Source of the DNA: Candidatus Nitrososphaera evergladensis SR1
GTDB taxonomy: Archaea > Thermoproteota > Nitrososphaeria > Nitrososphaerales > Nitrososphaeraceae
Assembly (NCBI RefSeq): GCF_000730285.1
Contig: NZ_CP007174.1
Location: 1,736,001 to 1,800,000 of the forward strand
Length of the DNA stretch: 64,000 nucleotides
Direction: 5' to 3'
Shown piece after piece: positions 16,788 to 17,328 of the stretch. Below the pieces are notes generated by a model that was not told where the DNA came from, did no database searches, and saw only the letters and a program-made list of their open reading frames with translations. Both the position numbers and the translations under genes were made by a program. Position 1 is the stretch's first letter, and every line of letters begins with the position of its first letter.

Positions 16788-17044
16788 TTGTCTTTCTCTA
16801 CGGCCGTAAAACTCGCAGTCCCAGAATATTAGATAATGAGGAATGGACTTAGTAGAGAATTTTACACGCGTATACAAATACGAGATGGCAGGTCGGGATG
16901 GCGCAATGAAATTCCACAATACGCGTATATGTGCACCTTTCAAGTGACACTGGACCTTTTGATCTGCCCGGTGTCTGGCGATTTTTTCAGCACAATATAA
17001 TGTCAAGCACGCTGGCATAATGATATGCGTGTGTATAGGAAAAG

Positions 17045-17118
17045 AGCCTTGGACGGGATTTGGACCCGTGACCTCTACCTTACCAAGGTAACGCTCTACC
17101 AGGCTGAGCTACCAAGGC
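17045..17118 (-). tRNA. tRNA-Thr (anticodon GGT)
   Basis: Full cloverleaf on the minus strand: acceptor GCCTTGG/CCAAGGC, D stem GCTC/GAGC, anticodon loop TTGGTAA, variable AGGTC, T arm ACGGG-TCCAAAT-CCCGT, and discriminator T, which is usual for archaeal tRNA-Thr. CCA is not encoded. No intron. Confidence 0.95.
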
Positions 17119-17205
17119 TCAACGTTCAAAAAACACGAGGGTTTGATTAAGGTATCGAAGATACCGCCAAGATTTAATTAGTGACAGAGCTTTTTTCGGC
17201 TGTGC

Positions 17206-17328
17206 GCGGGGGTTGTAGAGCCCGGCCAAATAGAAGAAAGATGCAGTCTTGGAGACGCGGGACTTAAGATCTCACAATGGGTTATCCCGTCCCTCAGGGG
17301 TCCGTGGGTTCAAATCCCACCCCCCGCA
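17206..17328 (+). tRNA. tRNA-Leu (anticodon TAA) with two candidate introns
   Basis: Acceptor GCGGGGG/CCCCCGC, long variable arm (CCCT/GGGG) and T arm GTGGG-TTCAAAT-CCCAC identify a class II Leu tRNA. Removing 17269-17283 (15 bases) restores the anticodon arm CGGGA-CTTAAGA-TCCCG, the canonical 37/38 intron position. The D region is still 23 bases too long; removing 17232-17254 gives a perfect GTA/TAC D stem (10-12 with 23-25). The first intron is certain in kind; the D-arm intron is a strong inference. CCA is not encoded. Confidence 0.85.

Follow-up and report, generated by a model that had tools for sequence, protein, structure and literature searches.

Several archaeal lineages carry tRNA genes with more than one bulge-helix-bulge (BHB) intron. 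In the Thermoproteales, tRNAs have two or three such introns, with D-arm sites that include 20/21, 22/23 and 25/26, and the splicing endonuclease EndA is heteromeric (PMC4090602). Caldiarchaeum subterraneum possesses a multi-intron tRNA-Leu(UAA) as well as D-arm introns (PMC3293823). For the Thaumarchaeota, the tRNAscan-SE 2.0 survey counts 107 non-canonical introns and describes the training of a dedicated thaumarchaeal BHB model, with several introns per gene being handled (PMC8450103). Heteromeric EndA has been reported for both Thaumarchaeota and Crenarchaeota and tied to non-canonical introns (PMC4090602, PMC4033280).

The tRNA-Leu(UAA) gene of Candidatus Nitrososphaera evergladensis SR1 resembles each of these systems. 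It shares with the Thermoproteales multiple BHB introns, one of them in the D arm, and a heteromeric EndA predicted from the genome, and with Caldiarchaeum subterraneum the isoacceptor and the multiple introns. Like the surveyed thaumarchaeal introns, it belongs to the same phylum and contains short BHB introns outside 37/38, and no essential difference was found. Its D-arm site, 23/24, is not among the example sites of the Thermoproteales review (PMC4090602), where comparison is subject to the ambiguous numbering of the class II D loop. The gene is of a known kind, with an ordinary splicing signal, and is common to most ammonia-oxidising archaea examined; what stands out is the clade-wide stability of the D-arm intron, along with an order of splicing that may be enforced.

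A tRNA-Leu(UAA) gene with two introns

The gene lies at 17206-17328 on the forward strand of the window, the whole 64-kb stretch that was analysed, which covers positions 1,736,001-1,800,000 of the 2.95-Mb single-contig genome (Table 1). The acceptor stem pairs GCGGGGG (17206-17212) with CCCCCGC (17321-17327), A73 is at 17328 and the T arm occupies 17304-17320. The anticodon stem is formed by CGGGA (17258-17262) and UCCCG (17285-17289), and excision of intron 2 leaves a 7-nt anticodon loop, CUUAAGA. Excision of intron 1 creates the D stem GUA (17215-17217)/UAC. With both introns out, an 85-nt class II tRNA is obtained in which every stem is intact and which has the features of a tRNA-Leu: UAA, a long variable arm, a 3-bp D stem, A73 and an intact T arm. 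These data bear out a preliminary description of the locus as tRNA-Leu(TAA) with two introns, one at a non-canonical D-arm site. Its identity is confirmed by the anticodon UAA and the class II cloverleaf after splicing, the proposed 15-base excision does mend the anticodon arm, and the proposed 23-base excision, which gives the GTA/TAC D stem, has exact boundaries that are picked by BHB geometry.

Table 1. Coordinates of the tRNA-Leu(UAA) gene and its upstream element (window positions).
Feature	Positions	Strand	Description	Basis
Exon 1	17206..17231	+	acceptor 5' strand, positions 8-23	length-for-length alignment with paralogue Leu(CAA) (L035) and relatives
Intron 1	17232..17254	+	23 nt, position 23/24, D arm	BHB and relatives
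Exon 2	17255..17268	+	positions 24-37, anticodon UAA 17265-17267	D and anticodon stems restored
Intron 2	17269..17283	+	15 nt, canonical position 37/38	BHB
Exon 3	17284..17328	+	from position 38 through the discriminator base A73; variable arm long; no encoded CCA	
Probable TATA box ATTTAATTA	17172..17180	+	26-34 nt upstream of the Leu gene; putative function	

Sequence of the gene, exons in capitals: GCGGGGGTTGTAGAGCCCGGCCAAAT agaagaaagatgcagtcttggag ACGCGGGACTTAAG atctcacaatgggtt ATCCCGTCCCTCAGGGGTCCGTGGGTTCAAATCCCACCCCCCGCA

A gapped pattern combining the D loop and the anticodon of Leu(UAA) gave this gene as its sole match in the genome. The pattern needs both motifs intact and tolerates gaps of up to 39 nt, because of which longer introns and diverged genes are missed. 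ARAGORN with introns allowed made no call at 17206-17328 and Rfam at the gathering threshold missed the gene, as is expected for a D-arm insertion. At a relaxed threshold, Rfam returned weak matches alone (Plastid-ycf2 and a tmRNA T-arm fragment), which were rejected. In practical terms, ARAGORN and the Rfam tRNA model overlook the one Leu(UAA) gene that the search of this genome recovered. The TATA-like element upstream is present with the same letters and the same spacing in a congener (5' flank of L107). On the reverse strand, an intact and intron-free tRNA-Thr(GGU) gene (17044-17118) is divergent to the Leu gene, 87 bases away.

Splicing motifs at the two junction pairs

At the D-arm intron, exon CCAA (17226-17229) and intron UUGG (17249-17252) form four Watson-Crick pairs, flanked by bulges of 3 nt each, AU^A (17230-17232) and AG^A (17253-17255), where the caret marks the cut. 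Cuts between the second and third bases of each bulge take out exactly 17232-17254. The outer helix would consist of G17225-C17256 and of CCCG/CGGG with one bulged G. The inner helix is longer in other lineages; the SR1 genome has only 2 bp of it, which makes the motif a weak or relaxed version of a strict BHB. At 37/38, the helix CUUA (17263-17266)/UGGG (17278-17281) includes two G-U pairs, the bulges are AG^A (17267-17269) and UU^A (17282-17284), the outer helix is the anticodon stem and the cut geometry is that of the D-arm intron. D-arm splicing had been expected to require a non-standard motif. This view was mistaken, since each junction pair has the standard archaeal BHB core (3-nt bulge, 4-bp helix, 3-nt bulge), with the D-arm site cut as at 37/38 and only its inner helix weak.

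An enumeration over the tRNA genes of this genome, allowing one or two introns with a 4-bp BHB core, gave exactly 23/24 (23 nt) plus 37/38 (15 nt) as the top-scoring solution for the Leu(UAA) gene. When 17230-17256 was shuffled, 0.6% of trials had a 23-nt excision that yielded a D stem of 3 bp together with a BHB helix of 4 bp, and comparison of homologous sequences removes chance as the source of the D-arm layout. In the Leu(CAA) paralogue of the same genome, position 8 is separated from the anticodon loop by the same number of bases, with no insert. BHB folds were not seen by plain RNA folding of the precursor, whose minimum-energy fold is another structure (-44.5 versus about -28 kcal/mol for partial BHB folds). 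Plain minimum-energy folds are poor predictors of tRNA precursors.

The D-arm intron in relatives

Of 400 genomes from the class, 306 contained a match to the gapped pattern and 94 had none; in the family, 58 of 70 genomes matched. Among the matches listed, 122 genes, including that of SR1 and picked partly for diversity, were extracted and spliced; the frequencies given here refer to these 122 genes. A D-region insert of at least 13 nt was present in 101 of the 122. Of these 101, 85 (85/122 overall) share the homologous layout and a central helix of 4 bp, and in three further genes, which carry UUGG or GUGG, three of the four pairs form. The remaining 13 inserts have a different layout (families f9, f12, f18 and one other); those of f9, f12 and f18, which do not have the UUGG layout, were left out of the count for this intron. 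All parsed members of the family of SR1 contain the D-arm intron, and the motif occurs, among the matches listed, in genomes named Nitrososphaera, Nitrosocosmicus, Nitrosopumilus, Nitrosarchaeum, Nitrosopelagicus and Nitrosopolaris and in one Cenarchaeum-labelled genome. The preliminary description had called such an arrangement notable for a thaumarchaeon. Its frequency among these relatives, together with the many non-canonical thaumarchaeal introns already published (PMC8450103), speaks against this.

Across the 85 relatives, the central helix is paired at all four positions (TCAA/TTGA once), the intron measures 13-27 nt and the exon span is always 27 nt. The D-stem pairs vary by lineage and are always complementary (GTA/TAC, ATC/GAT, GTC/GAC, GCC/GGC, GCT/AGC, GTT/AAC and others), a covariation across the intron that nothing but removal of the intron would lead one to expect. 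Outside the Nitrososphaeraceae, the inner hairpin changes in sequence and keeps its pairing (mean 4.6 bp versus 0.7 bp in shuffled sequences). The outer helix CCYG/CRGG is paired in nearly all intron-bearing relatives, and many relatives with no intron show the pairing too, since each strand belongs to the conserved sequence of the tRNA itself; as it does not discriminate, it was dropped as separate evidence for a BHB.

The predicted cut gives a 3-bp D stem in 85/85 relatives. Shifted excisions give one in at most 6/85, except for a shift of +1 (50/85), which reflects a tie between the A residues at both junctions. This tie bears on the alternative that excision occurs one base over, at 24/25 (17233-17255), where the mature RNA would be identical and the D stem alone cannot separate the two cuts. 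The BHB geometry nevertheless gives 23/24, where, just as at 37/38, the cut follows the second base of the bulge, and the 35 of 85 relatives with no tie support the same site, which leaves 24/25 a slim chance.

In two genomes of one genus (L158 and L159, f2/g18), both introns are precisely absent and the 5' flanks match those of the intron-bearing L156. In several f4 genomes, the D-arm intron alone is absent and the 37/38 intron is kept. These relatives serve as natural spliced versions of the gene. They also bear on the still slimmer chance that splicing takes out the 37/38 intron alone and that the mature tRNA retains the 23 bases in an enlarged D arm. Conservation of the 3' end of the region (UUGGAGAC) might favour such retention, but pairing with CCAA in the BHB accounts for the conserved UUGG, the insert is otherwise free in sequence and variable in length, intron-free relatives and insert-free paralogues exist, and the unspliced gene forms a D stem in just 3-6 of 85 relatives. 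That the locus is a decayed pseudogene with a D-arm insertion, tRNA-Leu(UAA) being supplied by another gene, has next to no likelihood: standard finders do miss it, yet all spliced stems are intact, the promoter-like element is conserved, as are the exons among members of the family, and the pattern search of the genome turned up a single Leu(UAA) gene.

The joint absence in L158 and L159 hints at loss through a copy of spliced RNA or through gene conversion, and these intron-free alleles provide material for asking how tRNA introns get lost. Because its position and BHB layout are common to the named ammonia-oxidiser genera, the D-arm intron is most likely old, being present in the ancestor of ammonia-oxidising archaea and later lost in some lineages, a state deduced from this distribution. 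A common origin with the Caldiarchaeum-type case is not supported, because the sampled deeper families f9, f12 and f18 differ in layout (no UUGG at the 3' end). Thermoproteales introns are described as rapidly gained and transposed (PMC4090602); in contrast, the SR1-type D-arm intron is positionally stable, keeping to one site throughout a whole archaeal clade even as the sequence inside it turns over freely. Our literature search, in which coverage of key papers was incomplete, found no description of this conserved intron, and we make no claim to a first report. In the tRNA-Leu(UAA) genes of L055-L058 (family f12), a different insert is located near 25-29 and flanked by GCGCG direct repeats, representing a separate non-canonical intron.

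Splicing enzymes and predicted processing

The catalytic residues of archaeal EndA are well established. The SR1 genome encodes a catalytic EndA subunit of 187 aa (L100; nearest chains 3p1z_B and 3ajv_B), in which the GPGIDHAP segment is kept with its His, and a second EndA paralogue of 215 aa (L101). Alignment of the latter to 1a79 showed that it has neither the catalytic His nor the VRK motif, and it would fit the expected structural subunit. Judging from the genes alone, the enzyme would be heteromeric (alpha-beta), with a catalytic alpha subunit and a beta subunit devoid of catalytic residues. An RtcB gene is also present (L172).

We consider it almost certain that this is a functional and apparently sole tRNA-Leu(UAA) locus from which two BHB introns, at 23/24 and 37/38, are excised to give an 85-nt class II tRNA. 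The transcript would carry both introns, heteromeric EndA would cleave each 3-nt bulge between its second and third bases, and the exon halves would be joined, probably by RtcB, into mature tRNA-Leu(UAA). Expression of the gene, actual excision and the role of RtcB are what we infer from the DNA.

More tentatively, the D-arm intron could be ancestral in ammonia-oxidising archaea and the two introns removed in an obligatory order, a combined proposal that we regard as possible and rather doubtful. The D-arm outer helix (CCYG 16-18/CRGG 27-30) and the anticodon stem would contest the same strand, and the precursor would alternate between two folds that exclude each other, which suggests stepwise removal. 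Since covariation in the D-arm outer helix is not discriminating, ordered splicing is put forward as hypothetical.

Simple enumeration also gave apparent non-canonical introns in other tRNA genes of this genome, namely Asn(GUU) (L027; near 27/28 or in the D arm, 31-33 nt), Lys(CUU) (L021; near 42/43, 22 nt) and Arg(CCG) (L038; near 29/30, 25 nt). Two near-duplicate tRNA-like genes of 95-96 nt (L031 and L034) gave no clean anticodon/intron solution and are possibly multi-intron or decayed. Finally, a 138-nt tRNA-Trp(CCA)-like gene (L032) needs two introns, one of which is apparently in the T arm.
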